From positions 186,001 to 250,000 of the forward strand of contig NZ_JACRAH010000021.1 of assembly GCF_016234775.1 (NCBI RefSeq): 64,000 bases of DNA, read 5' to 3'. Position numbers and translations under genes: made by a program. This DNA comes from Aquabacterium sp. (GTDB lineage: Bacteria > Pseudomonadota > Gammaproteobacteria > Burkholderiales > Burkholderiaceae_C). Shown here piece by piece: positions 35,434 to 51,770 of the stretch. Numbering within the stretch: the stretch's first letter is position 1; the number at the start of each line of letters is the position of its first letter. The notes under the pieces are model-generated. The model had not been told where the DNA came from. It saw only the letters and a program-made list of their open reading frames with translations, and searched no databases.

Positions 35434-35503
35434 GAACTGGCTCCGAAAAGAAGGACGGCTCTGCTCGTATGCAAGAAGCGATCCACCGGTTTTGGCAACG
35501 TGT

Positions 35504-35531
35504 GCGTACGCCCACTACGTCAATTAACGTA
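35504..35531. promoter_or_regulatory. Probable regulator box upstream of urtA (TACGT-N6-ACGTA)
   Basis: TACGT (35516-35520) and ACGTA (35527-35531) form an inverted repeat with a six-base spacer. Directly upstream lies the palindrome GCGTACGC (35504-35511). The same repeat with the same spacer length and matching flanks (C before, TT after) stands upstream of amiE at 51691. It is between the divergent hybrid kinase and urtA genes, 135 bases before the urtA start. The binding protein is inferred to be the NarL-type regulator. Confidence 0.65.
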
Positions 35532-35666
35532 TTCATGGAAAACCCGCTCGTCCGTACTGTTGCACCCAAGGTCGCGACAAGCGGTGCGGGATGACAGGTT
35601 CGACAAGGGCCACTCATGCACCACTGCGCGGCATCGGCAACCCGTTTTTGTGCAAGGAGTCCTTTC

Positions 35667-36917
35667 ATGTCGAATGACCAGAATGATCAGTCCCTCAACC
35701 GCCGCCGCGTCCTGCAAGGGCTGGGCACCGTCCCCCTGATGGGCGTCGCCGGCCTGAGCTACGGTGCGGCACCCGCCACCTCGGCTGTCAACACGACCAA
35801 GCTGGCCGTGACCGACACCGAGGTCATCGTGGGCCAGTTGCACTCCGCGACGGGCACCATGGCCATCTCGGAAACGGGATCGATCCAGGCAGAGCAACTG
35901 GCCATTGATCAGATCAACGCCATGGGCGGCGTGCTGGGCCGCAAGATCAAGGTCATCAAGGAAGACGGCGCATCGGACTGGCCGACCTTTGCCGAGAAGT
36001 CCAAGAAGCTGCTGGTCAATGACAAGGTGGCCTGCGTGTTCGGCTGCTGGACATCGGCTTCGCGCAAGGCCGTGCTGCCCATCTTCGAAAAGGAAAACGG
36101 CCTGCTGTACTACCCCACCTTCTATGAAGGCCTGGAACAGTCCAAGAACGTGATCTACACCGGCCAGGAAGCCACGCAGCAGATCATCTGGGGCCTGGAC
36201 TGGGGCGCCAAGGAGAAAAAGGCCAAGAAGTTCTTCCTGGTGGGGTCCGACTACATCTGGCCACGCACGTCGATGAAGATCGCCCGCAAGCACATCGAAA
36301 ACTTCCAGAAGGGTTCAGTGGTGGGTGAGGAGTACTACCCACTGGGCAATACCAACTTCAACTCCCTGATCAACAAGATCAAGCTGGCCAAGCCAGACTG
36401 CATCTTTGCGGCAGTGGTCGGGGGCTCCAACGTGGCCTTCTACAAGCAACTCAAGGCTGCCGGGATCACGGGCGCCAAGCAGTTCCTGCTGACCCTGTCG
36501 GTGACCGAAGACGAAATGCTGGGTGTAGGCGGCGAAAACTTCGCCGGCTTCTATTCCTCGATGAAGTACTTCCAATCGCTGCCCAACGAGAACAACAAGA
36601 AGTTCGTCGAGGCCTTCAAGAAGGCTTACGGTCCCAAGTCGGTCATCGGGGACGTGACGCAGGCCGGCTACCTGGGGCCCTGGTTGTGGAAGGCTGCCGT
36701 CGAAAAGGCCGGCAGCTTCGACGTCGACAAGGTCGTGGCCGCCTCGCCTGGCATCGAGTTGAAAACGGCGCCGGAAGGCTACGTCAAAGTCCACGCCAAC
36801 CACCACCTCTACAGCAAGGCACGCATCGCTCAGGGCATGCCGGATGGCACGTTCAAGGTGGTAGCCGAATCAACCGACCTGATCGAGCCGAATCCATTCC
36901 CCAAGGGATATCAATAA
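35667..36917 (+). CDS. urtA: Urea/short-amide ABC transporter substrate-binding protein UrtA
   Basis: A 416-residue periplasmic binding protein of the branched-chain-amino-acid type, urea-specific subgroup. The leader contains NRRRVLQGLGTVPLMG, a twin-arginine-like signal. The mature protein begins with IVGQLHSATGTMAISETG and contains the subgroup hallmarks ACVFGCWTSASRKAVLPIFE, LLYYPTFYEGLEQS and NVIYTGQEATQQI. AAGGAG (35654-35659) supports the start at 35667. It is the first gene of the urtABCDE-fmdAB run. Since formamidase, not urease, follows, the bound substrate could be formamide or another short amide. Confidence 0.95.
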   Translation: MSNDQNDQSLNRRRVLQGLGTVPLMGVAGLSYGAAPATSAVNTTKLAVTDTEVIVGQLHSATGTMAISETGSIQAEQLAIDQINAMGGVLGRKIKVIKEDGASDWPTFAEKSKKLLVNDKVACVFGCWTSASRKAVLPIFEKENGLLYYPTFYEGLEQSKNVIYTGQEATQQIIWGLDWGAKEKKAKKFFLVGSDYIWPRTSMKIARKHIENFQKGSVVGEEYYPLGNTNFNSLINKIKLAKPDCIFAAVVGGSNVAFYKQLKAAGITGAKQFLLTLSVTEDEMLGVGGENFAGFYSSMKYFQSLPNENNKKFVEAFKKAYGPKSVIGDVTQAGYLGPWLWKAAVEKAGSFDVDKVVAASPGIELKTAPEGYVKVHANHHLYSKARIAQGMPDGTFKVVAESTDLIEPNPFPKGYQ

Positions 36918-36940
36918 CCCACCCCCTACGGCCTTGGCCT

Positions 36941-36954
36941 CCCCCTCAAGGGGG
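36941..36954. repeat. CCCCC-TCAA-GGGGG hairpin in the urtA-urtB gap
   Basis: A GC stem of five pairs with loop TCAA lies 24 bases after the urtA stop, inside a CCCTACGGCCTTGGCC-type context. From memory, very similar segments recur between genes in Comamonadaceae, so it may be a dispersed element; this needs a search. It could also stabilise the urtA mRNA 3' end. Confidence 0.4.
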
Positions 36955-36992
36955 CTGATGGGCCGAACTGCGTGTGTTCGAAGGATGAGCGC

Positions 36993-37045
36993 GCGATCTG
37001 CCTGCCGTATTCAGACGACGGCCAGGGTTCAGGCAAGCAGATCGC
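36993..37045 (+). promoter_or_regulatory. Long stem-loop between urtA and urtB
   Basis: GCGATCTGCCTGCC (36993-37006) pairs with GGCAAGCAGATCGC (37032-37045): 13 of 14 positions match, around a 25-base loop. It lies about 70 bases before urtB. Such a structure may lower read-through, letting the binding protein be made in excess over the permease, or protect the urtA message. Confidence 0.5.
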
Positions 37046-37116
37046 TTCCTGCGTCAGCGTCGGTTGCAGTCACGGACCGGTGCTGCGCGGGCTTTTTGGA
37101 TTGAAGGGGATGACCC

Positions 37117-38031
37117 ATGTCTTTTGAAGAACTACTCAATATCGGCCTGATGCAGGGCTTCGCAGGCTTGAGCCTGTTTTCGGTGCTGCTGCTCATGGGC
37201 CTGGGGCTGGCCGTGATTTTTGGCCAGATGGGTGTGATCAACATGGCGCACGGTGAATTCATGACCATCGGCGCCTATACGGTGTTCATGGGATCGACCG
37301 TGATCGAGAAATACGCACCGGACCTCATCCAGGCTTACTTCCCGTTTGCCATCGTCGCCGCATTCCTGATCGCCTTCGGCATCGGATGGCTCACTGAATG
37401 GGCACTGATCCGTCACCTCTACAAACGGCCACTGGATACCCTGCTCGCAACCTGGGGCTTGAGCCTCGGTCTTCAACAGATCTTCCGCACGGCCATCGGC
37501 CCCAAGGAAGTCAGCCCGACGCTGCCCGATTGGCTGATGGGCTCCTGGGCGCCTCAAGAGGGCCTGGACATTCCCATCAACGGCATGTTCGTGATGGGCC
37601 TTACCGCCCTGGTCACGGTGCTGCTGATGCTGGCGCTGTACAAGGCCCGCTGGGGTTTGCGTGTGCGAGCCACGGTGAGCAACCGCGTGATGGCCAACGC
37701 CATCGGCATCAATACCAAACAGACGGACCGACTCACCTTTGCGATTGGCTGCGGCATCGCCGGTGTGGCCGGTGCCGCCTTCACCACCATCGGCTCCACA
37801 GGCCCTACCAGCGGCTCTCTCTACATCGTGGACTCCTTCCTCGTGGTCACTTTCGGTGGCGCAGGCAGCCTGCTGGGCACCGTGGCATCGGCCTTCGGCA
37901 TCGCCCAGACGCAATCGATCAGCGAGTTCTTCATGACAGGCTCGAACGCCAAGGTGCTCACGTTGCTCACGGTCGTGACGATCCTGATGCTGCGTCCACA
38001 AGGCCTGTTCCCCTCGAAGGTTCGCAAGTAA
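37117..38031 (+). CDS. urtB: Urea/short-amide ABC transporter permease UrtB
   Basis: A 304-residue LivH-type inner membrane permease with eight or so hydrophobic helices. The conserved GLAVIFGQMGVINMAHGEFM (about 30-50) and the EAA-like loop with ANAIGINTKQTDRLTFAIGCG identify the UrtB branch. The AAGGGG before the ATG at 37117 supports the start. It is separated from urtA by about 200 bases holding two hairpins, and followed by urtC after 25 bases. Confidence 0.94.
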   Translation: MSFEELLNIGLMQGFAGLSLFSVLLLMGLGLAVIFGQMGVINMAHGEFMTIGAYTVFMGSTVIEKYAPDLIQAYFPFAIVAAFLIAFGIGWLTEWALIRHLYKRPLDTLLATWGLSLGLQQIFRTAIGPKEVSPTLPDWLMGSWAPQEGLDIPINGMFVMGLTALVTVLLMLALYKARWGLRVRATVSNRVMANAIGINTKQTDRLTFAIGCGIAGVAGAAFTTIGSTGPTSGSLYIVDSFLVVTFGGAGSLLGTVASAFGIAQTQSISEFFMTGSNAKVLTLLTVVTILMLRPQGLFPSKVRK

Positions 38032-38056
38032 TCCAACGGTTTGAAAGGAGTTTTTC

Positions 38057-39247
38057 ATGGGCAAAGTTCAAACCTGGATCACACAGCAAAAGCTGGGCAG
38101 CATCGCGCTGCTGGCCCTGCTGCTGATCGTGGTCTTCCCCCTCGCGCTGGACATATTCCGCCTCAACCTCATCGGCAAGTACCTGACCTACGCCTTCGTG
38201 GCACTCGGCCTGGTCATGCTGTGGGGGCATGCCGGCATCCTCAGCCTGGGGCAAGGGGTGTTCTTCGGCCTGGGTGGCTACATGATGGCCATGTTCCTCA
38301 AGCTGGAGGCGTCGGATCCCATCAGCACCAAGATCCAGTCCACACCCGGCATCCCCGACTTCATGGACTGGAACCAGCTCACAGCCCTGCCGTCCTGGTG
38401 GGTGCCATTCAAGAGCCTGCCCCTGGCCTTGATCGCCGTGCTGGTGGTGCCCACGTTGTTGGCCTTCATCATCAGCTACGCCATGTTCAAGCGGCGCGTG
38501 GGGGGCGTGTACTTCGCCATCATCACGCAGGCTGTGGCCCTGATCCTGACGGTGCTCATCATCGGTCAGCAAGGCTACACAGGCGGCGTCAACGGCATCA
38601 CCGACTTGAAGACCATGCTGGGCTGGGACATCCGCACCGACCACGCCAAGTACGTGCTGTACTACGTGTGCGTGGGCCTGCTGCTGGCCTCGGTCTTTCT
38701 GTGCCGCTGGGTACAGTCTTCCAAGCTGGGGACCTTGCTGCTGGCCATGCGCGACAAGGAAGACCGCGTGCGCTTCTCTGGCTACGACGTGGCCATGTTC
38801 AAGGTCTTCGCCTTCTGCCTGGCCGCCATGTTGTCCGCCATCGGTGGTGCCATGTTCACCTTGCAGGTGGGCTTCATGTCGCCTTCATTCGTGGGCATCG
38901 TGCCTTCCATCGAGATGGTGATCTTCGCCGCAGTGGGTGGCCGCATGAGCCTGGTTGGCGCCATCTACGGCGCGCTGATCGTGAACTTCGGCAAGACCTA
39001 CTTCTCAGAGAGCGCACCGGATCTGTGGCTGTTCCTGATGTCGGGCCTGTTCATCGGCGTGACCATGGCCTTCCCCGATGGCCTGGCCGGTCTGTGGGAG
39101 CAAAAGATCAAACCCTGGTGGGACAAGCGTCAGGCCGATCGTGCCACTCAAGCAGAGCGCATCAAGGCGGCCCACGCGGCCTACCCCAATGTGCTGCCGC
39201 CCGGCAAGGATGGCCTGCCCCCCGGCATGAGCGGCCAACAAGCCTGA
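38057..39247 (+). CDS. urtC: Urea/short-amide ABC transporter permease UrtC
   Basis: A 396-residue LivM-type permease. Hydrophobic helices start near residue 15; FVALGLVMLWGHAGILSLGQGVFF and the later loop GYDVAMFKVFAFCLAAMLSAIGGAMF are family signatures. A long cytoplasmic tail (about 350-396) is Pro/Gly-rich. AAGGAG precedes the ATG. It pairs with UrtB to form the membrane channel driven by UrtD and UrtE. Confidence 0.94.
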   Translation: MGKVQTWITQQKLGSIALLALLLIVVFPLALDIFRLNLIGKYLTYAFVALGLVMLWGHAGILSLGQGVFFGLGGYMMAMFLKLEASDPISTKIQSTPGIPDFMDWNQLTALPSWWVPFKSLPLALIAVLVVPTLLAFIISYAMFKRRVGGVYFAIITQAVALILTVLIIGQQGYTGGVNGITDLKTMLGWDIRTDHAKYVLYYVCVGLLLASVFLCRWVQSSKLGTLLLAMRDKEDRVRFSGYDVAMFKVFAFCLAAMLSAIGGAMFTLQVGFMSPSFVGIVPSIEMVIFAAVGGRMSLVGAIYGALIVNFGKTYFSESAPDLWLFLMSGLFIGVTMAFPDGLAGLWEQKIKPWWDKRQADRATQAERIKAAHAAYPNVLPPGKDGLPPGMSGQQA

Positions 39248-39279
39248 CACCCTCACCTGTTCACACAAGGAACCTCATC

Positions 39280-40035
39280 ATGAGTGACACAAGTGGCAAG
39301 AAAGAGTTCGTGCTCTACATCGAGGATCTGACGGTGTCCTTCGATGGCTTCAAGGCCATCGACAGCCTCAACCTCTATGTCGACAAGAACGAGTTGCGCG
39401 TGATCATCGGCCCCAACGGAGCCGGCAAGACCACGCTGCTGGACCTGATCTGCGGCAAGACCAAGGCCAGCACAGGCAGCATCAAGTTCAAGGACCAGGA
39501 GCTGACCAGAACGCCCGAGCACAAGATCGTGCGGGCGGGTGTGGGCCGCAAGTTCCAGACCCCCTCCATCTACGAGAACCTGAGCGTCTTCCAGAACCTG
39601 GAGGTGTCTTTCCCGCAAGGCCGCAGCGTACTGGGCGCGCTGGGCTTCAAGTGCACGGACGAGGTCAAGGCGCGCGTGCAGGTGGTGGCCGAAGAAATCG
39701 GTCTGTCGGACAAGCTGGAGACCGAGGCGGGCCTGCTCTCACACGGCCAGAAGCAATGGCTGGAGATCGGCATGTTGCTGATGCAGGAGCCCGAGCTGCT
39801 GATGCTGGACGAACCCATCGCCGGCATGAGCGCCAAGGAGCGCGAGCAAACCGCAGAGTTGCTCAAGCGCATCTGCAAGAACCGCTCGATGATCGTGATC
39901 GAACACGACATGGCCTTTGTGGCTCAGATTGCATCCAAGGTCACGGTGATGCACCAGGGCAAGATCCTGGCCGAAGGCACGATGGACCAGGTCCAGAGTG
40001 ATCCCAAGGTGATTGACGTTTATCTGGGTCACTGA
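39280..40035 (+). CDS. urtD: Urea/short-amide ABC transporter ATPase UrtD
   Basis: A 251-residue ATPase of the LivG type. Walker A GPNGAGKTT, signature LSHGQKQWLEIG, Walker B LLMLDEPIAGM and the switch His in IVIEHDMAFV are all intact. The signature has the SHGQ variant instead of SGGQ, as is usual for UrtD. The ATG at 39280 follows an AAGG-containing ribosome binding site in the short gap after urtC. It ends 11 bases before urtE. Confidence 0.95.
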   Translation: MSDTSGKKEFVLYIEDLTVSFDGFKAIDSLNLYVDKNELRVIIGPNGAGKTTLLDLICGKTKASTGSIKFKDQELTRTPEHKIVRAGVGRKFQTPSIYENLSVFQNLEVSFPQGRSVLGALGFKCTDEVKARVQVVAEEIGLSDKLETEAGLLSHGQKQWLEIGMLLMQEPELLMLDEPIAGMSAKEREQTAELLKRICKNRSMIVIEHDMAFVAQIASKVTVMHQGKILAEGTMDQVQSDPKVIDVYLGH

Positions 40036-40046
40036 GGAGACACACC

Positions 40047-40736
40047 ATGCTGGAAGTCAAAGACCTGTTCGTGAGTTATGGCCAGAGCGAGGCGCTGCAT
40101 GGCATCTCGTTTGAAGCCAACAAGAACGAGACCGTGGCCATCATGGGCCGCAATGGCATGGGCAAGACCACGCTGTTCAAAAGCCTGATGGGCGTGCTGC
40201 CCACCAAGTCCGGCGAGATCAGCGTGGCAGGCAGCAGCGTCGTCAAGGACGAGAGCTACAAGCGCGTAGCCAAAGGCATCGCCTATGTGCCGCAAGGCCG
40301 CATGATCTTCCCGACATTGACGGTGGAAGAGAACATCCAGACCGGTCTGGAGAACAGCAAGAGCAAGAAGATCCCTGACGAGATCTACTCGCTCTTCCCC
40401 GTGCTGTTCGACATGCGCGCACGCAAGGGCGGCAACCTGTCGGGCGGGCAGCAACAGCAACTGGCCATTGCCAGAGCCTTGGTGACCAACCCCAAGGTGC
40501 TGCTGCTCGATGAACCCACCGAGGGCATTCAGCCTTCCATCATCAAGGACATCGCCAAGGCCCTCAACGAGATCCGCAAGTTGCGCGAGATCACGATCGT
40601 GGTGTCCGAACAGGTGCTGTCCTTTGCGATGGACGTGGCTGATCGTCTGTTCGTGATCGAAGGCGGCCGACTGGTGCATGAGACCACGCGCGCCGACACC
40701 GATGCCGAGCGCATCAAAGCCTATTTGTCTGTCTGA
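40047..40736 (+). CDS. urtE: Urea/short-amide ABC transporter ATPase UrtE
   Basis: A 229-residue ATPase of the LivF type. Walker A GRNGMGKTT, signature LSGGQQQQLAIARAL, Walker B VLLLDEPTEGI, and the C-terminal His switch region are replaced by the LivF-type VVSEQVLSFAM. The start is supported by GAGGAG nine bases upstream. It completes the importer; the formamidase gene follows after 35 bases with its own AGAGG. Confidence 0.95.
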   Translation: MLEVKDLFVSYGQSEALHGISFEANKNETVAIMGRNGMGKTTLFKSLMGVLPTKSGEISVAGSSVVKDESYKRVAKGIAYVPQGRMIFPTLTVEENIQTGLENSKSKKIPDEIYSLFPVLFDMRARKGGNLSGGQQQQLAIARALVTNPKVLLLDEPTEGIQPSIIKDIAKALNEIRKLREITIVVSEQVLSFAMDVADRLFVIEGGRLVHETTRADTDAERIKAYLSV

Positions 40737-40771
40737 TTTCTTCGAAACCCATCTTCACCAAGAGGTACGCC

Positions 40772-42001
40772 ATGGCTGACACCCTGATCAAAGTCGACCT
40801 GACCCAATCGCCCACCCTGAACGAGAACATCCACAACCGATGGCACCCGGACATCCCGATGGCCTGCTGGGTCAACCCTGGTGATGAGTTCATCCTGGAA
40901 ACCTTCGACTGGACCGGTGGCTTCATCAAGAACAATGACTCGGCCGATGACGTTCGCGACATCGACCTGAGCACCGTGCACTACCTCAGCGGCCCCGTGG
41001 GCGTGAAGGGTGCAGAGCCTGGCGACCTTTTGGTGGTAGACCTGCTGGACATCGGCGCCAAGCAAGACTCGCTGTGGGGCTTCAACGGCTTCTTCAGCAA
41101 GCAAAACGGTGGTGGCTTCCTGACCGAGCACTTCCCGCTGGCGCAGAAGTCCATCTGGGACATCCACGGCATGTTCACCAAGAGCCGCCATGTGCCCGGT
41201 GTGAGCTATGCCGGCCTGATCCACCCAGGCCTGATCGGCTGCCTGCCTGATCACAAGATGCTGGAGGCCTGGAACACGCGTGAGCAAGAGCTGATCGACT
41301 CGAACCCCGGCGTGACCGGCCTGGCCAACCCGCCTTTCGCCGGCACAGCCCACATGGGCAAGCTCACCGGCGAAGCCAAGGACAAGGCCGCCGCTACCGC
41401 AGCCCGCACCGTTCCCCCACGTGAACACGGCGGCAACTGCGACATCAAGGATCTCTCGCGGGGCTCCAAGGTTTACTTCCCCGTGTATGTAGATGGCGCT
41501 GGCCTATCGGTGGGCGACCTGCACTTCAGCCAGGGCGATGGCGAGATCACCTTCTGCGGCGCCATCGAGATGGCCGGCTGGGTGCACATGAAGGTCACGC
41601 TGATCAAGGGCGGCATGGCCAAGTACGGCATCAAGAACCCCATCTTCAAGCCCAGCCCGATCAAGCCTGTCTACAACGACTACCTGATCTTCGAAGGCAT
41701 CTCGGTGGACGAGCAAGGCAAGCAGCTCTACCTGGACGTGAACGTGGCCTACCGCCAGGCCTGCCTCAACGCCATCGAGTACCTCAAGAAGTTCGGCTAC
41801 AGCGGTGCGCAGGCCTATTCCATCCTGGGGACGGCGCCCGTGCAGGGCCACATCAGCGGCGTGGTCGACGTGCCCAATGCCTGCGCGACCTTGTGGCTGC
41901 CCACCGAGATCTTCGACTTCGACATCAACCCGACCGCCGCCGGGCCCACGAAGTTCCTCGACGGCAGCATCGACATGCCGATCTCGCCGGACATCAAGTA
42001 A
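40772..42001 (+). CDS. fmdA: Formamidase
   Basis: A 409-residue member of the acetamidase/formamidase family, which hydrolyses formamide (and less well acetamide) to ammonia and the acid. It matches the Methylophilus FmdA type: NRWHPDIPMACWVNPGDEF near the start, GPVGVKGAEPGDLLVVDLLD, and HGGNCDIKDLSRGSKVYFP with the metal-binding Asp/His region. The length is normal. It lies in the urt operon, so imported substrate is probably cleaved here to release ammonium. Next comes fmdB. Confidence 0.95.
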   Translation: MADTLIKVDLTQSPTLNENIHNRWHPDIPMACWVNPGDEFILETFDWTGGFIKNNDSADDVRDIDLSTVHYLSGPVGVKGAEPGDLLVVDLLDIGAKQDSLWGFNGFFSKQNGGGFLTEHFPLAQKSIWDIHGMFTKSRHVPGVSYAGLIHPGLIGCLPDHKMLEAWNTREQELIDSNPGVTGLANPPFAGTAHMGKLTGEAKDKAAATAARTVPPREHGGNCDIKDLSRGSKVYFPVYVDGAGLSVGDLHFSQGDGEITFCGAIEMAGWVHMKVTLIKGGMAKYGIKNPIFKPSPIKPVYNDYLIFEGISVDEQGKQLYLDVNVAYRQACLNAIEYLKKFGYSGAQAYSILGTAPVQGHISGVVDVPNACATLWLPTEIFDFDINPTAAGPTKFLDGSIDMPISPDIK

Positions 42002-42018
42002 GCACCAGGAGCACGCTC

Positions 42019-42372
42019 ATGCCCACCTATGACTATGCGTGCCCGAGCTGCGGCGGCTTCGACGCCTTTCGCAGCCTGGCTCAGCGCAATGACCCATGTG
42101 CCTGCCCTGACTGCGGCACGGACTCGCAACGTGTGTTCGTGAGTGCACCGCGCCTGGCCTGCGTGAGCAGCGACACGCGCACGGCCATGGAGACCAATGA
42201 GCGCGCGCAACACGCGCCCATGTCATCCAAGGAGTACGGTGGGTATCAGCGGCTCAAACATCCGTCAGGATGCGGCTGCTGCTCGCCAGGGGCCAAGCGC
42301 AGCGCCACGGTCAAGGCGGCCAACGGGAACAAGATGTTCCCGAGCAAGCGGCCGTGGATGATCAGCCACTGA
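42019..42372 (+). CDS. fmdB: FmdB-type zinc ribbon protein
   Basis: A 117-residue small protein with an N-terminal zinc ribbon: CPSC (about 8-11) and CACPDC (about 28-33) supply four metal-binding cysteines. The C-terminal half ends in a second small Cys group, SGCGCCSPG, then a basic tail. FmdB-type proteins are thought to regulate or assist amidases. AGGAG precedes the ATG at 42019, 17 bases after the formamidase stop. It is the last gene of the urt-fmd operon. Confidence 0.92.
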   Translation: MPTYDYACPSCGGFDAFRSLAQRNDPCACPDCGTDSQRVFVSAPRLACVSSDTRTAMETNERAQHAPMSSKEYGGYQRLKHPSGCGCCSPGAKRSATVKAANGNKMFPSKRPWMISH

Positions 42373-42397
42373 ACTGGCTGACAGCACATCGAGCAAC

Positions 42398-42838
42398 TCA
42401 GGCACGCACGCCCGAGATGTAGTGCTCCAGTTGCTCGATGATGAACTTCTGCTCGGAGATGATGCCCTTGACCAGATCGCCGATGGACACCATGCCGAGC
42501 AGGCGATCACCGTCCATCACGGGTAAATGGCGCAGGCGGTTCTCGGTCATCAGGGCCATGCACTCTTCGCTGGTCTGACTCGGGCTCACGTACATCACGG
42601 CCGAGGTCATGATCTCGCTCACGTCCGTCTCCCGGGACAAGCGAGACATGAGCGCAATCTTGCGTGCGTAGTCGCGCTCGGTGATGATCCCGACGACCTC
42701 GCCGTCCTCCATCACCAGCAGCGCACCCACGCGTTTTTCCGACATCTTGACCAAGGCGTCATAGACCGACGCTGTAGGTGCAATGGTGTGCACGAACTGG
42801 TCCTTCTTGGACCGGAGAATGTCAGCAGCAGTGGTCAC
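42398..42838 (-). CDS. Two-CBS-domain protein
   Basis: A 146-residue protein made of two CBS domains (about 10-70 and 78-135) with the usual GIITERDYARKIAL and GMVSIGDLVKGII strand-helix patterns. CBS pairs bind adenine nucleotides as energy sensors; the partner is unknown. The start is a GTG at 42838, supported by an AGAGGAG ribosome binding site; no ATG lies nearby in frame. It is convergent with fmdB. Confidence 0.9.
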   Translation of the reverse strand: MTTAADILRSKKDQFVHTIAPTASVYDALVKMSEKRVGALLVMEDGEVVGIITERDYARKIALMSRLSRETDVSEIMTSAVMYVSPSQTSEECMALMTENRLRHLPVMDGDRLLGMVSIGDLVKGIISEQKFIIEQLEHYISGVRA

Positions 42839-42871
42839 CTTGTCGCTCCTCTTTGTGGGTCAAACACGTGA

Positions 42872-43384: not shown

Positions 43385-43507
43385 GGTTCCCTCCGATCAG
43401 CGCCAGCAAACAGGCGCCAGACGGCACTTGTACACCCACGCCAGGCATCAGGCAAGCCCTGCCACCAGTAGGGATTTGACCGTGAGAGCGCCAGGCCTGG
43501 CGCCTGG

Positions 43508-44086: not shown

Positions 44087-44106
44087 GTTGGCAAACTCCG
44101 GCTGTC

Positions 44107-44565
44107 TCAGTGGTTGATCGCACGCTCGATCTGCTTGTCCATGATGGAGGGCTCGCCTGGCGGCCCCGCCAGATCACGGACGTTGGGCAAGCGCCCCTTG
44201 TGCTCGGGGGTGGCAGCAGCCTCAGAACTCTCGCTTTTCACCACGGTCACCGAGCCCTTGTCCAGCGGGCGTTCCGCTGCTGGGTTCTTGCAAGGCTCAT
44301 CGGTATACGTGACCTTGTCACCCACCTTGCATTTGTGGATGCCCGCAGGAGCCTGAGGCAGTGACTCGACTGGTGGCCGCTCGACCTTGGCCTCACGGCT
44401 CACGGTGGCGGCCAACTCCTTGACCTGCACCACCTCCTGCTTGATGGCAGCAGGCAAGACATGTTCAGGCACAAGCGTATTCAAGCGCCCCGCCACGAAG
44501 TATTTCCAGACCAGGGCCAGCAACACTGCCAACACCGCGCCCACCAGTATCTTGCGAACCAACAT
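44107..44565 (-). CDS. DUF4124-like anchored protein
   Basis: A 152-residue protein with one N-terminal membrane helix (about 5-25) and a small DUF4124-like segment HKCKVGDKVTYTDEPC (about 80-95) with two cysteines, typical of envelope proteins of this order. The rest is low complexity and rich in Lys, Glu and Pro. AAGGAG lies eight bases before the ATG at 44565. It is preceded (44566-44645) by a gap of about 80 bases with no evident feature. Confidence 0.7.
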   Translation of the reverse strand: MLVRKILVGAVLAVLLALVWKYFVAGRLNTLVPEHVLPAAIKQEVVQVKELAATVSREAKVERPPVESLPQAPAGIHKCKVGDKVTYTDEPCKNPAAERPLDKGSVTVVKSESSEAAATPEHKGRLPNVRDLAGPPGEPSIMDKQIERAINH

Positions 44566-44645
44566 CAACCGGACTCCTTGCAGACTTGTTGTTCAAGTCT
44601 CGCATTGTCCCGCACCGGCGCCCAGGCTGTCTGGCCCTGGTGCCC

Positions 44646-45395
44646 TCAACGCCCCGTTGGGCCGTAAACCTTCTCGCGCAAGGCCTGCAACTGGGCCTCC
44701 AGCGTGGCAGGATCCTTGTTGGCCGTCGGTGTGGTCTGCCACTTGGCGACCAGCTCTGCCTGCAAGGCAGCGAACTCGTCATTCTTGCGCTTTTCTTCGG
44801 TCAGGGCCTTGGCCTGAGCCTCGCTTTGCATGCCATGAAGTCGGCTCAATTGCTGGTCTATCCAGGCCTGCTGCCTGGTCGAGTCTGGCTCCATGTCAGC
44901 GGCCAGCGCTCTGAGCAGCAGCGACGCCTCACCGGAATTGACCTCGCCATTGGCAGCATGCAGCGGCAACTGATCCACCAGTTCACGGGCCAGTGCCTGC
45001 CGGCCGGCCACGTTCGGGCCGTCCTTCATCTCGCTCCATTGAGTCACAGCACGTTGAAAGCGCAGGTAAGACACCAGACGCTGCCGCTCCTGAGCCTTGT
45101 TGGGCTCGTTCTCCAGCGCCTTGTTCAAGGCATCCCAGGCATCCTGGGTGATATCGGCAGGTCGCGAGTCGCCCACCGGGCTGCGGGGGATCAAGGGCTG
45201 GCCGTCGCTGTTCCCCGCTGAGGCGGTGATTGGCCAACCACCTGACGCGGGTGCCATCGCCTGGGAATGAGTGGCGCCGTCAACGCCCGACACCGTGCGC
45301 TGCCACGCCACATACGCACCTGCAGCCACCACGGCCACCACAGGCAACCAGAGCCAGCGCTTGGAAAAAGACTTGTCGATCAAAGTGGTGGACAT
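44646..45395 (-). CDS. Single-pass membrane protein with helical periplasmic domain
   Basis: A 249-residue protein that I cannot assign. It has one membrane helix at about 15-35 and a long, charged alpha-helical region with coiled-coil-like heptads (about 85-240; ALNKALENEPNKAQERQRL, QSEAQAKALTEEKRKNDEF). The layout recalls lipase foldases (Lif), and a secreted esterase gene lies just upstream, but the LSAxGE-type motif of that family is absent. The start at 45395 has only a weak ribosome binding site. Confidence 0.6.
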   Translation of the reverse strand: MSTTLIDKSFSKRWLWLPVVAVVAAGAYVAWQRTVSGVDGATHSQAMAPASGGWPITASAGNSDGQPLIPRSPVGDSRPADITQDAWDALNKALENEPNKAQERQRLVSYLRFQRAVTQWSEMKDGPNVAGRQALARELVDQLPLHAANGEVNSGEASLLLRALAADMEPDSTRQQAWIDQQLSRLHGMQSEAQAKALTEEKRKNDEFAALQAELVAKWQTTPTANKDPATLEAQLQALREKVYGPTGR

Positions 45396-45420
45396 GGGGG
45401 CAACGCATCAAAGTCAAACG

Positions 45421-45442
45421 CGGCCTGCCATGTAGCAGGCCG
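45421..45442 (-). terminator. Hairpin after the esterase gene
   Basis: CGGCCTGC (45421-45428) and GCAGGCCG (45435-45442) are perfect 8-base arms around six bases. It lies 12 bases after the esterase stop on the minus strand and is followed there by a moderately T-rich stretch. Confidence 0.5.
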
Positions 45443-45453
45443 TCCAGCCGCGA

Positions 45454-46719
45454 TTAAAGCGGAATCAGATCAGACAGGCCATCCGCAATGATGTCACTGA
45501 GGTAAACCCGCTTGGGTGGCGGATTCAGCTCTTCTGCGCGCAACACAGGGCCTGAGCCATCCAGCAGATTGTCAACGAAGACCCCGAGGGATTGATAGCC
45601 CCGCTCGACGATGCTGGAGCCACCAAAAGTCAGGATGGTGCTGCAGTGAGCCTGGTTGAACTTGCGCCAGTTGGGGATGTAGTACCCCACGTTCGGGTAG
45701 GCACTCAGGGCGGCCAGCCAGGGCTTGAGGTCCTGGCGCCACTTCTGATTGAGCAGCTTCAGACGCTGCTCGTTGGTCGGCGCATTGGCAATCTCGGGGA
45801 AGAACTTCTGGTACGAGAAGGCCGAAAACACGCCATCTTCCTGGAACAGGGTGTAGCCCAGCCGGTCATTGGGGAAGAGCTTGCCCAAATTGCCTTGCAG
45901 CGTGCCCAGGTTGTTGGGATCGCCCACGCCAGGGTACTTCGCCACGATCTCGGTGACCATGCCCTTGGCCCCATCCAGCCCCCAGGCTTCACGGATCTTG
46001 TTGTGCAAGGGCACCGACGGGTATTGCGCCGGATCGCCGTTGCGCGGTGCGATCATCAAGGGCCCCGCATCCGACAACAAGGCCGATTTCTTCGGGCGCA
46101 GCGTTTCACGGAAGGTCGCGTAATGAGCGGAAGAAGCCACACCACCCGCCGAGAAGCCGGTGACGAGCAAGTGTGCCGGCGCCCCCATGTTGATGGACAT
46201 CCAGGACGCCACGTACTTCATGTTGGGCAGGCCCTTGTGCTCGAAGGCATAGGCCTTGGCAGGATCTTCTGGGTTGTAAACGACGGTGCGGTTGCCGGTC
46301 TGCACATCGCCCGTGCAGTAAGGCACGTAGACGATGTTCCACGATTGGGTCTTCACCGCCTGCAGTGGATTGATGCGCGCCGTGAAGGGGGTGACCAGAC
46401 CGAGGTGAGCCTGCCGGTTGAAGTCCGACATGTAGTTGGCCGGAACGCCATCAGGGTTGACGGCCGCCAGCATGGAGCCGCCCTTGCAGGCCACGCCATC
46501 CCAGCAGGCACCACCACCCTCGAACATGATGACGGTCTTGCTGGTGAAGGGTGTGCGGTTGACGAAGAAGCGGTAAGGCGTGCCATTGCCACAGGTGGCA
46601 CCGGTGGTGGCCGGTGCGGTCACCGTTTCCCACTGGAAGTAGCCTGCGTGGGCCAATCCGCTGATCAGGGTACCGGCGATGGCCTTGGTGGCCAGAAGCG
46701 AAAAACGACTTACTTTCAT
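45454..46719 (-). CDS. Secreted pectin-acetylesterase/Notum-type hydrolase
   Basis: A 421-residue exported alpha/beta hydrolase of the pectin acetylesterase (PAE/Notum) family. A signal peptide (about 1-25) is followed by IMFEGGGACWDG (family oxyanion motif), WNIVYVPYCTGDVQTGN and the nucleophile elbow VTGFSAGGVASS with the catalytic Ser. Several cysteines may form disulfides. The substrate need not be pectin: bacterial members hydrolyse varied esters. AAGGACC lies before the ATG. It is divergent from the flavoenzyme operon at 46979, with a palindrome in between, so joint control is likely. Confidence 0.87.
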   Translation of the reverse strand: MKVSRFSLLATKAIAGTLISGLAHAGYFQWETVTAPATTGATCGNGTPYRFFVNRTPFTSKTVIMFEGGGACWDGVACKGGSMLAAVNPDGVPANYMSDFNRQAHLGLVTPFTARINPLQAVKTQSWNIVYVPYCTGDVQTGNRTVVYNPEDPAKAYAFEHKGLPNMKYVASWMSINMGAPAHLLVTGFSAGGVASSAHYATFRETLRPKKSALLSDAGPLMIAPRNGDPAQYPSVPLHNKIREAWGLDGAKGMVTEIVAKYPGVGDPNNLGTLQGNLGKLFPNDRLGYTLFQEDGVFSAFSYQKFFPEIANAPTNEQRLKLLNQKWRQDLKPWLAALSAYPNVGYYIPNWRKFNQAHCSTILTFGGSSIVERGYQSLGVFVDNLLDGSGPVLRAEELNPPPKRVYLSDIIADGLSDLIPL

Positions 46720-46791
46720 CTCGGGTCCTTTTGCTTGTTTGGGGGGGCGCTACCCAGTCTGAACAGCGACATCAAACAGGCCAACAAGGAC

Positions 46792-46807
46792 TAACCCGAA
46801 CGGGTTA
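46792..46807. promoter_or_regulatory. Palindrome between divergent esterase and flavoenzyme genes
   Basis: TAACCCG and CGGGTTA are perfect 7-base inverted arms around two bases (AA). It stands 73 bases upstream of the esterase start and about 170 bases upstream of the flavoenzyme start, in a gap of 259 bases. It looks like an operator for a dimeric repressor. No regulator gene is adjacent. Confidence 0.5.
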
Positions 46808-46932
46808 TTTGCACGCACTCGAACAAGGGGGCAGCAACTGTCAGAAGCCTTACAGTCAAACGCTTTTTTGCTACGCGGTGACGTACAGATAGGGGTTTCC
46901 TTCAATAAACATTGAGCCTTCAGGCCACTAGT

Positions 46933-46969
46933 CTGAAAAACGTTGTTATTTTTCACTTCAACGTTTCAG
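46933..46969 (+). promoter_or_regulatory. Hairpin overlapping the leader of the flavoenzyme operon
   Basis: AAACGTTG (46938-46945) pairs exactly with CAACGTTT (46959-46966), extended by CTGA/TCAG across a two-base bulge. The right arm ends within the AGGAA ribosome binding site region just before the ATG at 46979, so it could control translation or be an operator. Confidence 0.4.
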
Positions 46970-46978
46970 GAACTGATC

Positions 46979-48469
46979 ATGAGCCAACCCGAGACCCCAT
47001 CGCGCCGCCGCCTGCTGGGTGGCCTGACCGCCACGGCCGCCGCCGCCCTGCTGCCAGCAGGCCGAGACAACCTGGCTCAGGCTGCCACAGGTCCCGGCGC
47101 AATGGGCGACTACAACACCGATGTCGTCGTGATTGGTGGGGGCTACGCTGGCCTCGCGTGTGCCCGCGCCCTGGTGGCCGCTGGCAGGCAGGTCGTGCTG
47201 CTGGAAGCCCGTGATCGGGTGGGCGGCCGCTGCTTCAACATCAACCTGCCCGCTCCCTACGGCCAGTACACGGTGGAAGGCGGGGCCGAGTTCATCGGCC
47301 CCACGCAAGACCGCATGTACAGCCTGGTTCAGCAACTGGGCCTCAAGACCTTCCCCTCCTACAACACGGGCAAACAGATCAACTACATCGGCGGCAAGCG
47401 CAGCACCTACAGCGGCGTGCTGCCCTGGACGGGCCTTTACTCCACCGCGGAAATCGGCATCGCCATGCTGCGCCTGGATGACATGGCCAAGACCGTACCG
47501 CTGGACGCGCCCTGGAACGCCAGCAAGGCCATGCAGTGGGACAACCAAAGCGCCCAGACCTGGATGGACGCCAACGTGCTGAGCGCCGATGCCAAGTCGC
47601 TGCTGCGTCTGGCCGTCCTGGCACTGCTGTCTGTGGAGCCTCGCGACGTCTCCATGCTCTACCTGCTCTTCTACATTCACTCTGGCGGCGGCCTCACCTC
47701 GCTGCTGAGCACGGCAGGCGGCGCGCAGCAAGACCGCATCGTGGGCGGCTCTCAGGCTATCGCACTGGGCATGGCGCGCGAACTGGGCACACGCATCCTC
47801 TACAACTCGCCGGTTCGCAAGGTCAAGCAGGATGCCTATGGCATCGCGGTGTCTGGCGATGGCTTCACCGTGCGCGCCCAGCATGCCGTGATGGCCATGT
47901 CGCCCTGGATGGCCTCGCGCCTGGCCTACGAGCCCTTTGACGGCCCACTGCAATACCGCATGCAGATGATGCAGCGCGTCCCCATGGGTTCGATCTGGAA
48001 GGTGCACTGCGTGTACGACAAGCCTTTCTGGCGCGACGACGGCTTGTGTGGCCAGGTCACCAGCGACGCCTACCTGCCCAAACTCGTGTTCGACAACACC
48101 CCACCGGAACCCGGTGCGCCAGGCGTGCTCATGGGCTTCATCGACGGCCAGGATGCCCGTGATGCGGTCCTGATGACGCCGGAGGCCCGCAAGGCCAATG
48201 TGCTCAAGGCCATGAGCATCTACTTCGGCGCCAAGGCGGCCACACCCATCGCCTATACCGAGAACAACTGGCAATCAGAGAACTTCAGCGCCGGCGGCCC
48301 GACAGGCGTGTTCCCGCCCGGCGTGCTCACCGGTTTCGGCGCGGCACTGCGCGCACCCTCCGGCCGACTGCACTGGGCCGGCACGGAGACCTCCACCGTG
48401 TGGACAGGCTATATGGATGGTGCCGTCCGCTCCGGGGAGCGCGCCGCCAGCGAAATCCTGGGGCAATGA
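46979..48469 (+). CDS. FAD-dependent flavin amine oxidase
   Basis: A 496-residue flavoprotein. The leader SRRRLLGGLTATAAAALLPAG is a twin-arginine signal, so the enzyme is exported folded. The FAD-binding motif VVVIGGGYAGLACARALVAAG, the GGR-type segment RVGGRC and GGAEFIGPTQDRMY follow, and the C-terminal LHWAGTETSTVWTGYMDGA is the amine-oxidase FAD signature. The start at 46979 follows AGGAA. Its stop overlaps the next start (ATGATGA). Substrate unknown; monoamine oxidase-like. Confidence 0.9.
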   Translation: MSQPETPSRRRLLGGLTATAAAALLPAGRDNLAQAATGPGAMGDYNTDVVVIGGGYAGLACARALVAAGRQVVLLEARDRVGGRCFNINLPAPYGQYTVEGGAEFIGPTQDRMYSLVQQLGLKTFPSYNTGKQINYIGGKRSTYSGVLPWTGLYSTAEIGIAMLRLDDMAKTVPLDAPWNASKAMQWDNQSAQTWMDANVLSADAKSLLRLAVLALLSVEPRDVSMLYLLFYIHSGGGLTSLLSTAGGAQQDRIVGGSQAIALGMARELGTRILYNSPVRKVKQDAYGIAVSGDGFTVRAQHAVMAMSPWMASRLAYEPFDGPLQYRMQMMQRVPMGSIWKVHCVYDKPFWRDDGLCGQVTSDAYLPKLVFDNTPPEPGAPGVLMGFIDGQDARDAVLMTPEARKANVLKAMSIYFGAKAATPIAYTENNWQSENFSAGGPTGVFPPGVLTGFGAALRAPSGRLHWAGTETSTVWTGYMDGAVRSGERAASEILGQ

Positions 48470-49599
48470 TGACGCAGCCACTTCAGCAGACCGATGTCAT
48501 CATCGTGGGTGCCGGGCCGGCTGGCCTGGCCGTGGCGGCATGCCTGAAACGCACAGGCAAGTCATGCGTGATCCTGGAGCGGGAAGCACAGGTCGGCTCG
48601 TCCTGGCGCACGCACTACGATCGGCTGCATCTTCACACGGACAAGGCGCACTCCTCGTTGCCAGGCTACAAGCTGCCCGACAGCTACCCCCGCTATCCCG
48701 CCCGGCAACAGGTGGTGGATTACCTGGACGCGTACGCACGTCATTACGATTTGCATCCCCGCTTTCTGGAAGAAGTGCGTGATGCCCGGCGCCTCAATGG
48801 CCAATGGGAAGTGACGAGCAGCGAGGGCGTCTACCGGGCGAAATCGCTGGTGGTGGCCAGCGGCTACAACAACGTGCCGCAGATACCCAAGTGGCCCGGT
48901 CAGGACAAGTTCCAGGGCCGCATTCTGCACAGCAAGCACTACCGCAACGGCGCCGCGTTCAAGGACAAGGACGTGCTGGTGGTTGGCCTGGGCAACTCGG
49001 GCGGCGAGATGCTGATCGACCTGCATGAGCATGGCGCACGCCCGTGCATTGCCGTGCGCAGTCCGGTCAACGTGATTCCGCGCGAGGTCATGGGCGTGCC
49101 CTTCCTGACCATGGGCATCCTGCAGCGCAACCTGCCATCGCGACTGGTCGACAAGCTCAACGCCCCCATCACCAACGCCATCATCGGCGACCTGCGCCCC
49201 TACGGCATCCGCCGCCCCGCCGAGGGCCCGGTCACCCAGATCCGCGAGCAGGGGCGCGTGCCCTTCATCGATGTCGGCACCATCCGCCTCATCAAGGAGG
49301 GCCATGTCACCGTCTATCCCAACATCGAGTGTTTCACGCCCACTGGCGTGATGTTCGTGGACGGTCGTCAGCGCGATGTCGATGCCATCGTGCTGGCCAC
49401 CGGCTTCAAGCCTGTGTTGAACCACTGGTTGCACGCGCCAGGCGCGATGGACGATCAGGGCACGCCGCATTCCAGTGGCGAGGCGGTGGTCGGTCAGAAC
49501 CTCTACTTCTGCGGTTTTTACATATCGCCGACGGGCATGCTGCGCGAAATCGCCATGGAAGCGCAGGACATCAGCGAGCACATCGTGCGATCAGCCTGA
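48466..49599 (+). CDS. Flavin-containing monooxygenase-like NAD(P)/FAD oxidoreductase
   Basis: A 377-residue two-dinucleotide-binding flavoprotein similar to YUCCA/flavin monooxygenases. The FAD site is VIIVGAGPAGLAVAACL (about 12-28), the NADPH site VLVVGLGNSGGEML (about 171-184), and the FMO-like hinge IVLATGFKPVL appears later. Either of two adjacent ATGs (48466, 48469) may start it; the first overlaps the stop of the amine oxidase gene, implying translational coupling. Both enzymes probably act in one pathway of unknown substrate. Confidence 0.88.
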   Translation: MMTQPLQQTDVIIVGAGPAGLAVAACLKRTGKSCVILEREAQVGSSWRTHYDRLHLHTDKAHSSLPGYKLPDSYPRYPARQQVVDYLDAYARHYDLHPRFLEEVRDARRLNGQWEVTSSEGVYRAKSLVVASGYNNVPQIPKWPGQDKFQGRILHSKHYRNGAAFKDKDVLVVGLGNSGGEMLIDLHEHGARPCIAVRSPVNVIPREVMGVPFLTMGILQRNLPSRLVDKLNAPITNAIIGDLRPYGIRRPAEGPVTQIREQGRVPFIDVGTIRLIKEGHVTVYPNIECFTPTGVMFVDGRQRDVDAIVLATGFKPVLNHWLHAPGAMDDQGTPHSSGEAVVGQNLYFCGFYISPTGMLREIAMEAQDISEHIVRSA

Positions 49600-49768
49600 G
49601 CCACTACCCTGCACACCCCGCCCAAGCGAGAGAAAAGTCGCTCAAGCGGGCCAGTCGTCGCCAGTGGTTCCATACAGGCCATCAAGTCACGCCGGATCCT
49701 GACCGACATACGAAAAGGACCGGCGTGCGACTGTCGCGCGCCCGTATTGCCGTGATTTTGTCGCGCAG

Positions 49769-50977
49769 ATGTCATCCCTTCCGGATCCTCAGCAAAATGG
49801 AGCACCCGCCCCTGCCCCAACCTGGCAAGGCGAGACGGGTGCGCTCAGCAGTACGGATCAATCGCGCAATCAGGCCCTGATCGACACCACGGCGCGCATC
49901 ACCGGCGCGATGTATGTCTACGTCTCGCTGTGGCTGGTGATCACACTCGTCAGCGGCTTGCAGCGGAGCCATCCTGTACTGGTGTGGGGCGCGGCCGCCT
50001 GGCTGGGATTGCTTGCGCTGGTACGAGGCGTCGTTGGGCATCAACTGAAAAGCCTGCTGGACTACAACCCGGGTCTGGCACACAAGCTCACCGTCGGGCT
50101 GGTGTTGTGCAATGGCCTGACATGGGGCTTGCTGACTGCGGCCAGCGTCTATTTCCCCGAACTGGAGCCAATTCGCACATCGATGCTGCTGGTGGGCGTC
50201 GGCCTGAGTTCGGGCGGCACGGTGGCCATGGCCATCAACCCCACGCTCAAGGTCTGGTTCCCGGTCTCGGTGATCACGCCGGTGGCCCTGGCCACGGCCA
50301 GCAACATGACGCAAGGCAACCTGATGCTGGCAGGCCTGATGATGGTCTACACGGTCTACATCATGCATGCCTCACGCGTGGTCAGCCAGGACTACTGGCG
50401 CGCGCAGGTGGCCTACAAGGCGCTGGAACACGCCAGCCTGACCGACACGCTGACCCAGATCCCCAACCGTCTGCATTTCGACAGGCAGTATCAGGCCGAG
50501 TGGCGACGGGCATGCCGGCTGGGCACCAGGCTGGCGGTGATGATCGTGGACCTGGACCACTTCAAGCGCATCAACGACGAACACGGCCACCCTGTTGGTG
50601 ACGCCGTGCTGCAGGAAGCCGCCAATGCCATGCGCCAGGCCATCATGCGGCCCTGTGACGTACTGGCCCGGTATGGTGGCGAGGAGTTCATCGTGCTGCT
50701 GCCCGACATCACGGAAGATGGCGCGCACGTGGTCGCCGAGCGGCTGCGCGTACAAGTGGCCAACCTGAAGATCGCCGTACCGACTCGCAGCACCCACGTC
50801 AGCGTGACCTGCAGCCTGGGCTATGCCTGCACGATACCCCAGCACCATCACGATGCGGACGAGCCCATCCGACAGGCCGATGCGGCGCTCTACCGAGCCA
50901 AGACAGAGGGCCGCAATCGCAGCCGCTCATGGCAGGCGCCCTCCCCGCTGCGCACCTCGCCACTCACCACGACTTGA
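49769..50977 (+). CDS. Membrane diguanylate cyclase (GGDEF)
   Basis: A 402-residue protein. About six hydrophobic helices lie at residues 45-200, then a GGDEF domain at about 220-385 with the active motif GGEEF (303-307) and a matching inhibitory I-site RPCD at 294-297, so it should be an active c-di-GMP synthase with product inhibition. A short Pro/Ser-rich tail follows. No ribosome binding site is apparent before the ATG at 49769. The 170 bases before it hold no other feature I can see. Confidence 0.92.
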   Translation: MSSLPDPQQNGAPAPAPTWQGETGALSSTDQSRNQALIDTTARITGAMYVYVSLWLVITLVSGLQRSHPVLVWGAAAWLGLLALVRGVVGHQLKSLLDYNPGLAHKLTVGLVLCNGLTWGLLTAASVYFPELEPIRTSMLLVGVGLSSGGTVAMAINPTLKVWFPVSVITPVALATASNMTQGNLMLAGLMMVYTVYIMHASRVVSQDYWRAQVAYKALEHASLTDTLTQIPNRLHFDRQYQAEWRRACRLGTRLAVMIVDLDHFKRINDEHGHPVGDAVLQEAANAMRQAIMRPCDVLARYGGEEFIVLLPDITEDGAHVVAERLRVQVANLKIAVPTRSTHVSVTCSLGYACTIPQHHHDADEPIRQADAALYRAKTEGRNRSRSWQAPSPLRTSPLTTT

Positions 50978-51070
50978 GGTCGGTCGACCGCCTGCAGTCA
51001 GGGCAGTCTGTGCGGAAAACGCACTAACATCGCTCGACCACTCGCTCCCGGCCTTCGCGACTCGTCTTGC

Positions 51071-51673
51071 ATGTCTTTGCCCGTTCTGTATTCATTCCGA
51101 CGCTGCCCCTATGCCATCCGGGCCAGGCTGGCATTGCGCTACGCCGATGTGCCTTATGCCCTGAGGGAAGTGGCCTTGCGCGACAAACCTGCAGACATGC
51201 TGACCCTGTCGCCCAAAGGCACCGTGCCGGTGCTGCACCTGCCCGATGGCCGCGTGCTGGAGCAAAGCCTGGACATCATGCAATGGGCACTGGCGCAAGC
51301 TGATCCACAAGGATGGCTGACCGTGGCGCCGCTGGATGACATGCGCTCGCTGATCCTGCTCAACGACACGCAGTTCAAACCACTGCTGGATCGCTACAAA
51401 TACCCAGAACGTCATCCGATGCAAGACCGCACGACCTATCGTCAACAAGCGCTGGACTGCATGCTGGTTGACTTGAACCAGCGCTTGCGGCGCCACACGC
51501 ATCTGTTTGCCGCACAGCCCTGCCTGGCCGACATGGCCATCGTGCCCTTCGTGCGGCAGTTTGCACAAGTAGATCGCCACTGGTGGGATCACAACGAGCT
51601 CGACGCCTTGCGCAACTGGCTGCACTCACTGACGACCAGTTCACTGTTCGAGGCCGTCATGGCCAAACCCTGA
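51071..51673 (+). CDS. Glutathione S-transferase family protein
   Basis: A 200-residue GST-fold protein. The thioredoxin-like N-terminus reads VLYSFRRCPYAIRARLALRY with Cys in the usual nucleophile region, followed by GTVPVLHLPDGRVLEQSLDI, the glutathione-contacting segment. The C-terminal half is helical as expected (DYMLVDLNQRLRRHT-like pattern). It may be a grxB-like or omega-type enzyme; the substrate is unknown. It ends 98 bases before amiE with the regulator box in between. Confidence 0.88.
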   Translation: MSLPVLYSFRRCPYAIRARLALRYADVPYALREVALRDKPADMLTLSPKGTVPVLHLPDGRVLEQSLDIMQWALAQADPQGWLTVAPLDDMRSLILLNDTQFKPLLDRYKYPERHPMQDRTTYRQQALDCMLVDLNQRLRRHTHLFAAQPCLADMAIVPFVRQFAQVDRHWWDHNELDALRNWLHSLTTSSLFEAVMAKP

Positions 51674-51690
51674 GCGCGCTCTGCCCTGCC

Positions 51691-51706
51691 TACGTCAAAC
51701 AACGTA
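51691..51706. promoter_or_regulatory. Probable regulator box upstream of amiE (TACGT-N6-ACGTA)
   Basis: TACGT (51691-51695) and ACGTA (51702-51706) form an inverted repeat with a six-base spacer (CAAACA), flanked by C before and TT after, as in the urtA box at 35516. Thirteen of the 16 bases agree with the urtA box (CAA is also common). It lies 64 bases before the amidase start, a normal activator position. Confidence 0.65.
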
Positions 51707-51770
51707 TTGGCGCCCCCTCCTGTGATTTTCAAAATGGGCATCGTCATTGGCCCATCCACAGGAGCGCACC

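Follow-up and report, generated by a model that had tools for sequence, protein, structure and literature searches.

The amide-utilization locus and its two boxes

The window discussed here is the whole 64,000-nucleotide stretch that was analysed from an Aquabacterium species (contig NZ_JACRAH010000021.1, positions 186,001 to 250,000), and our subject is a short inverted repeat, the box, which stands in it twice amid genes for amide uptake and hydrolysis and for a two-component regulatory system. Box 1 (TACGTCAATTAACGTA, 35516..35531, + strand) reads TACGTCA-AT-TAACGTA, a 7-2-7 inverted repeat, and lies between the divergent genes for a sensor kinase and for UrtA, 135 bases ahead of the urtA ATG at 35667. 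Box 2 (TACGTCAAACAACGTA, 51691..51706, + strand) reads TACGTCA-AA-CAACGTA and lies upstream of amiE, 64 bases ahead of its ATG at 51771. With their flanks the two are identical as CTACGTCAA-N2-AACGTATT.

To the right of box 1, on the + strand, runs the series urtABCDE-fmdA-fmdB. It consists of urtA (35667..36917; TIGR03407, 514.6 bits), for the binding protein of a urea/short-amide ATP-binding cassette transporter; the permease genes urtB (37117..38031; TIGR03409) and urtC (38057..39247; TIGR03408); the ATPase genes urtD (39238..40035, start approximate; PF00005 and PF12399, named by position) and urtE (40047..40736; TIGR03410); the formamidase gene fmdA (40772..42001; NF045496); and a gene for an FmdB-like zinc-ribbon protein (42019..42372; PF09723), which takes its name from its place beside fmdA. 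To the left, on the - strand, are a hybrid sensor kinase gene (31987..35433), whose product combines an NCS1-like membrane domain, a cysteine-rich linker, HisKA, HATPase and a receiver, and a response regulator gene (31335..32003, its start chosen at the ATG that overlaps the 3' end of the kinase gene), whose product has a receiver (PF00072) and a GerE domain (PF00196), i.e., a helix-turn-helix of the LuxR/NarL type. Box 2 precedes the aliphatic amidase gene amiE (51771..52811, + strand; NF009802, 706 bits). Control of amiE by an AmiR-type protein was considered and set aside, as no ANTAR domain was matched on the window's contig (C3); the three matches in this genome are on C23, C39 and C63.

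A preliminary description of this DNA had placed the same TACGT-N6-ACGTA box at 35516-35531 and 51691-51706, and both copies are indeed there. The inverted repeat that it recognized is, however, larger than two TACGT arms, since the bases at N6 are largely conserved in the genus too (TACGTCAATTAACGTA, TACGTCAAACAACGTA, TACGTCATTCAACGTA and the perfectly palindromic TACGTCAATTGACGTA), and the box is better written TACGTCA-N2-TGACGTA. This form and its variants have the two inverted 7-base elements, 2 bp apart, of a NarL-type 7-2-7 operator, and a regulator with the receiver and GerE domains that go with such an operator is encoded next to it. In the genome as a whole (4,271,391 bases, or 4.27 Mb, in 68 contigs) TACGT-N6-ACGTA occurs at boxes 1 and 2 only, both within the amide cluster. 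Two tighter patterns, composed after the boxes had been seen, are rare by expectation: TACGTYRNNYRACGTA has two sites in the genome against 0.11 expected, and TACGYYRNNYRRCGTA has two in the window against none in 100 shuffles.

Conservation in Aquabacterium and beyond

The pattern is present in 36 of 42 genomes of the genus. There are 33 matches to urtA orthologues (87-100% identical), 30 of which were used as loci, and the box stands upstream in all 30, exactly in 29 and as TACGTCATTCGGCGTA in G021. It is exact also at urtA of G034 and G003, which brings the count to 32 of 32 orthologues with readable upstream DNA, 31 of them exact; urtA of G035, whose sequence begins inside the gene, was left out. 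The contig of G014 stops short of any kinase gene and thus does not show the divergent arrangement. In the alignment of the 30 loci the surrounding intergenic DNA has mostly diverged while box 1 has been kept. Upstream of amiE the record is more varied: among 30 orthologue loci the box is exact in 19, begins TGCGTC in four and is missing from the rest, so that 23 of 30 have it. A more distant amiE relative (55-57%) bears the box in G002 and G008, where the orthologue lacks it, and also in the fragmentary G039.

Outside the genus, TACGTYRNNYRACGTA is present in 80 of 399 genomes of the family, representing 42 of 141 genera. In the 246 family genomes from other genera that were searched for both, box and regulator occur together in 47, the regulator without the box in 7, the box without the regulator in 2 and neither in 190. 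The threshold for counting a regulator, E <= 5e-44, was chosen after the tables had been seen; the p-value of 2e-40 for this co-occurrence overstates the case, because related genomes are not independent. G108 is one of the two genomes with the box only; its boxes are on short contigs, in the kinase-urtA gap as well as ahead of amiE. The surroundings of 43 distinct sites were examined (42 from the family and one from the genus); 28 lie before urtA, which in one case, G096, is the second urtA, and nine, all in other genera, lie before amiE, at 59-99 bp from its start.

At least 552 kinase loci were found, and the best 80 of these, which we call the named loci and to which all statements about named loci refer, include members of Variovorax, Acidovorax, Polaromonas, Rhizobacter, Noviherbaspirillum, Methyloversatilis, Pseudomonas and Stutzerimonas. 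Two of the 80 hold no upstream DNA. In the 75 with a divergent urtA the box is exact in 70 and nearly so in five (L272, L275, L304, L318, L332), and in the three that lack a divergent urtA there is no exact box, a one-base variant being present in L319. One named locus, L274, comes from a public record titled Bordetella parapertussis (a metagenome-assembled genome) and holds a typical Burkholderiales amide cluster; the record is perhaps a mislabelled environmental bin.

Promoter layout

At both genes the box is placed, as read from the sequence, just upstream of a -35-like element. On the urtA side, TTCATG (35532..35537, + strand), assigned from the sequence and the alignment of 30 loci, adjoins box 1 directly, and a -10-like hexamer, TACTGT (35555..35560, + strand), falls 24-29 bases past it. 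TANNNT occurs at that offset in 47 of 70 named loci and at the other 19 offsets scanned in none; in most cases TTC or TGG comes right after the box, and conservation is 89% at columns A25 and T29. On the amiE side, TTGGCG (51707..51712, + strand) adjoins box 2, and a -10-like hexamer chosen by column conservation, CAAAAT (51730..51735, + strand), again lies 24-29 bases beyond. Conservation among 32 distinct amiE promoters is 100% for T1, 91% for T2 and 75% for G3, and 81%, 84%, 84% and 88% for A25, A27, A28 and T29, respectively; a narrower motif count gives 12 at the 24-29 offset and one each at four others. The geometry is thus common to two unrelated genes. If the usual 6 bases from -10 to start are assumed, the centre of the box would fall near -43.5, as for an activator, and since the box adjoins the -35 elements of the urtABCDE-fmdAB and amiE promoters, the regulator may be taken as an activator of the class II type. 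In seven Pseudomonas and Stutzerimonas loci (L326, L327, L329, L330, L331, L333, L335) a second, imperfect TACGTCA..TGCGTA pair lies past the first box, towards urtA, and the second box and different spacing there indicate that the layout is not universal.

In the other direction, a sigma-54-like promoter, TGGATCGCTTCTTGCA (35470..35485, - strand), reads towards the kinase gene and is strongly conserved in the Aquabacterium alignment. Strict matches of this type occur in 18 of 70 named loci against 0.11 expected from base shuffles, and they are limited by lineage, with nine of nine in L256-L264 but nine of 61 elsewhere, so that a sigma-54 promoter is not a general rule for the kinase. A similar element is also found at the sister kinase described below, e.g., CGGCATCGAAATTGC in L162. 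To judge from their sequences, these promoters suggest that nitrogen limitation sets the level of the sensor. The distance from box 1 to the kinase start is 61-95 bp in the genus sites and 46-241 bp in the named loci; from its place in the gap that separates urtA from the divergent operon for kinase and regulator, box 1 might exert feedback on the kinase gene as well.

A sensor kinase with a predicted NCS1-like fold

The phosphorelay parts of the kinase (HisKA, HATPase, receiver) are standard. Its residues 1-540, by comparison, match no Pfam family at E values up to 10, transporter family models included. A predicted model of this membrane domain, made with 25 sequences (pLDDT 74.9, pTM 0.78), was used in a fold search, and ranks 1-5 were all NCS1 transporters (Mhp1 and CodB, E 1e-8 to 4e-7), with TM scores of 0.60/0.70 against Mhp1 (4d1a) and 0.56/0.73 against CodB (7qoa). 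Nramp and SLC5 structures ranked lower, SLC5 at 7e-5 and weaker, which speaks against an SLC5 domain. By the model, then, the N-terminus of the kinase folds like the NCS1 transporters of the LeuT type, which would extend the transporter-fused kinases beyond SLC5. Between this domain and HisKA, at residues 498-535, is a conserved cluster of cysteines, possibly a metal-binding linker in the place where related kinases have STAC; no Pfam family was matched between the membrane part and HisKA, though it was left unchecked if STAC is among the Pfam models.

A sister system beside urease

The preliminary description expected that a scan of relatives would find the box before genes for urea, amide or nitrile use, and the sites do precede urtA with its divergent kinase gene, as well as aliphatic amidase genes. 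Urease, which was also among its expected targets, is not one of them. Instead, ureABC stands beside a paralogous kinase and regulator with a box of their own. This second kinase, 47-50% identical to the first in the ten cases measured, was examined in 20 genomes, and in all 20 its gene is divergent from that of the urease gamma subunit (recognized by its start sequence); in the window's genome, ureA, ureB and ureC beside it were confirmed by NCBIfam. Also part of the sister cluster are a regulator gene and a second urtA (39-41% at the three loci compared), upstream of which TACGCCA-N2-TGGCGTA, one base per half-site unlike the box reported here, was found in 20 of 20. In the window's genome the kinase, regulator and second urtA genes, divergent from ureABC, are at G000:C16:150000-169900 (L162), with the box TACGCCAGGTGGCGTA at C16:165985-166000. 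The sister box occurs once each in 31 of 42 genus genomes and is present in 32 of 250 family genomes; of the loci examined, 28 of 30 from the genus and 24 of 27 from the family have it ahead of the second urtA. As it precedes the second urtA and not ureA, control of urease by the sister box is unsupported as well.

By the urea model TIGR03407 both UrtA proteins qualify, with 590.6 bits for the sister versus 514.6 for that of the window. The arrangement suggests amides as the substrates of the window's "urea" transporter, the second urtABC being the one found with urease next to the sister kinase. The regulators differ in their recognition helices, which read TVNKHLEH in 18 of the 19 window-type regulators that could be read (TVSKHLEH in the other one) and TVKKQLEH in ten of ten sister regulators. 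We count the altered sister box and altered helix as support for the pairing of each regulator with its box. We are evenly divided over a wider proposal, that the two systems belong to an undescribed class of sensors, NCS1-fold kinases that would read small amides or urea in an amide and a urea branch, with regulators insulated by one bp per half-site (TACGTCA versus TACGCCA) and a few recognition-helix residues. The two duplicated two-component systems in any case form a natural pair, in which insulation could be probed by a change of one bp per half-site.

Which regulator uses the box?

What the analysis shows is the site and how it is conserved, the constant distance between it and a -10-like hexamer, the joint occurrence of box and regulator, and the transporter fold predicted for the kinase. 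We consider it very likely that the box is the operator of the adjacent NarL-type regulator (31335), the partner of the NCS1-like kinase, and that this regulator activates urtABCDE-fmdAB and amiE; we infer the binding, the phosphotransfer, the ligand and the activation. The NCS1-fold (LeuT-fold) domain of the kinase at 31987 would meet a ligand, most likely formamide, acetamide or urea; the ligand-bound kinase would phosphorylate the regulator encoded at 31335; and the phosphorylated regulator would dimerize on TACGTCA-N2-TGACGTA and turn on the genes for amide uptake, formamidase and amidase. A single regulon of urea/formamide import, formamidase and amidase under the transporter-like kinase system had been put forward in the preliminary description, and it draws support from the placement of the sites and from the co-occurrence of box and LuxR-type regulator throughout the family.

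Several findings weigh against this account. The regulator lacks a box in seven family genomes, three of which (G106, G259, G284) carry the sister box, so that their match may be to the sister regulator, leaving four unexplained; the late choice of the regulator cut belongs here also. Six of the 43 sites have neither urtA nor amiE recognized beside them (G059, the second site of G214, G344, the first site of G397, G411 and G430), and in G096 a box of the TACGT type stands ahead of the second urtA. Seven of the 30 amiE orthologues of the genus (in G002, G008, G016, G017, G031, G032 and G038) have no box, and all seven genomes carry a kinase orthologue (77-83%). Lastly, TACGT-N6-ACGTA as a bare pattern is about as common in this genome as chance predicts, with two sites found against 1.8 expected from base composition; its reversed control has four matches in the genome, and with two mismatches permitted the window is not enriched (five found, 4.4 expected). 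These counts are what would be seen if the sites were chance palindromes or terminator hairpins, a reading we nonetheless hold to be exceedingly improbable, since the boxes are kept in place across genera and families. Conservation rules out a chance palindrome where the bare count would not, and the standing of the box beyond chance rests on position and on conservation in relatives, not on pattern number. Nor does RNA folding of the two sites give anything unusual (z = 0.23 and -0.14), and thus nothing points to a terminator hairpin at either.

The box might belong to some other protein that happens to govern these genes, be it an orphan LuxR protein or a general regulator of nitrogen use, with the adjacent kinase and regulator merely among its targets, and the sigma-54-like promoter of the kinase gene in Aquabacterium does mean that a general nitrogen regulator may act on the region. 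We judge such ownership unlikely in view of the co-occurrence of box and adjacent regulator in the family, the correspondingly altered box in the cluster of the sister regulator, and the eight genus genomes (G011, G013, G022, G023, G024, G028, G029, G030) that have no kinase orthologue (matches only <=61%), urtA orthologue or amiE match (E <= 1e-60) and hold one chance-like site each in G013 and G028 and none in the other six. It is quite improbable that the adjacent regulator binds the box as a repressor, or chiefly to regulate its own kinase operon, leaving urtA and amiE to answer to something else. In the genus, where 61-95 bp separate it from the kinase start, box 1 could act both ways, but that distance varies (46-241 bp) in the named loci, and at urtA and amiE the box adjoins a -35-like element at a fixed distance from a poor -10, which is the layout of an activator-dependent promoter. 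Activation by the adjacent regulator accordingly remains the reading that we prefer.

Comparison with known systems

The consensus heptamer of NarL is TACYYMT, with which the present box has TAC at the outer ends in common, though its heptamer is TACGTCA and both the type of kinase and the targets are different. The NarL and NarP operators of E. coli likewise consist of inverted 7-base elements 2 bp apart, and at ogt one of these adjoins the -35 and the 7-2-7 site is centred at -44.5 (PMC7419079). A closer parallel in overall design is the ACTU motif of CrbS/CrbR in Pseudomonas and Vibrio, with a transporter-fused hybrid kinase, a LuxR-type regulator and an inverted repeat (-52 to -36) just ahead of an RpoD promoter for substrate use (PMC5715377). 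In that system the sensor is SLC5-STAC and the targets are acetate genes, whereas here we have an NCS1-like domain (as predicted) with a cysteine-rich linker, amide genes and a near-perfect 7-2-7 palindrome of another sequence.

Among amide clusters, fmdCABDEF of Methylophilus methylotrophus, which is induced by formamide and urea and repressed by ammonia, also combines formamidase with a short-amide/urea transporter and a porin; the part of the account available names only a putative positive regulator within the cluster (PMC10781810), whereas an adjacent two-component system with an operator is indicated here. Pseudomonas veronii Yu15 has the same gene set as amiE-fmdAB-urtABCDE, described in the available part of the report as without AmiC/AmiR, and import of formamide by urtABCDE beside fmdA is suspected there (PMC13209695). 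In Ectopseudomonas guguanensis G3 a histidine kinase and a LuxR regulator were noted adjoining the urtABCDE operon (PMC13296017). The accessible portions of both accounts give no operator or regulon (PMC13209695, PMC13296017), and a likely regulator and operator can now be named for clusters of this kind. Control by AmiC/AmiR, in which AmiR is an RNA-binding antiterminator (PMC13209695), has amiE as a common target enzyme and differs in that no ANTAR gene accompanies it on the window's contig. In the open-licence literature searched, no published description of the box or of NCS1-type kinases was found.

Other occurrences of the box

A one-mismatch third site in the window's own genome (C22:32093) has no urt gene or amiE recognized among the printed open frames there, and eight other genus sites (L014, L015, L026, L028, L069, L073, L076, L089) have no recognized urt, kinase or ami gene. 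Five of the amiE copies without a box (L127-L131) have in common an upstream element, CCGATTCTTGC, which perhaps marks another type of promoter. An extra box precedes a urtC gene in G020, G021 and G032. In four genomes, G001, G026, G035 and G036, a box lies ~95-110 bp ahead of a porin gene (sites L090:4543, L024:1501, L031:1057 and L062:5001); it was not found at the porin orthologues L367, L369, L371 and L372 (66-71%) or at the 52% relative in the window's genome, L389, with L370 outside the comparison. At the porin sites the box sits inside a longer palindrome, CATACGTC..GACGTATG, and it could be either an operator or, as part of that longer hairpin, the terminator of the preceding gene.

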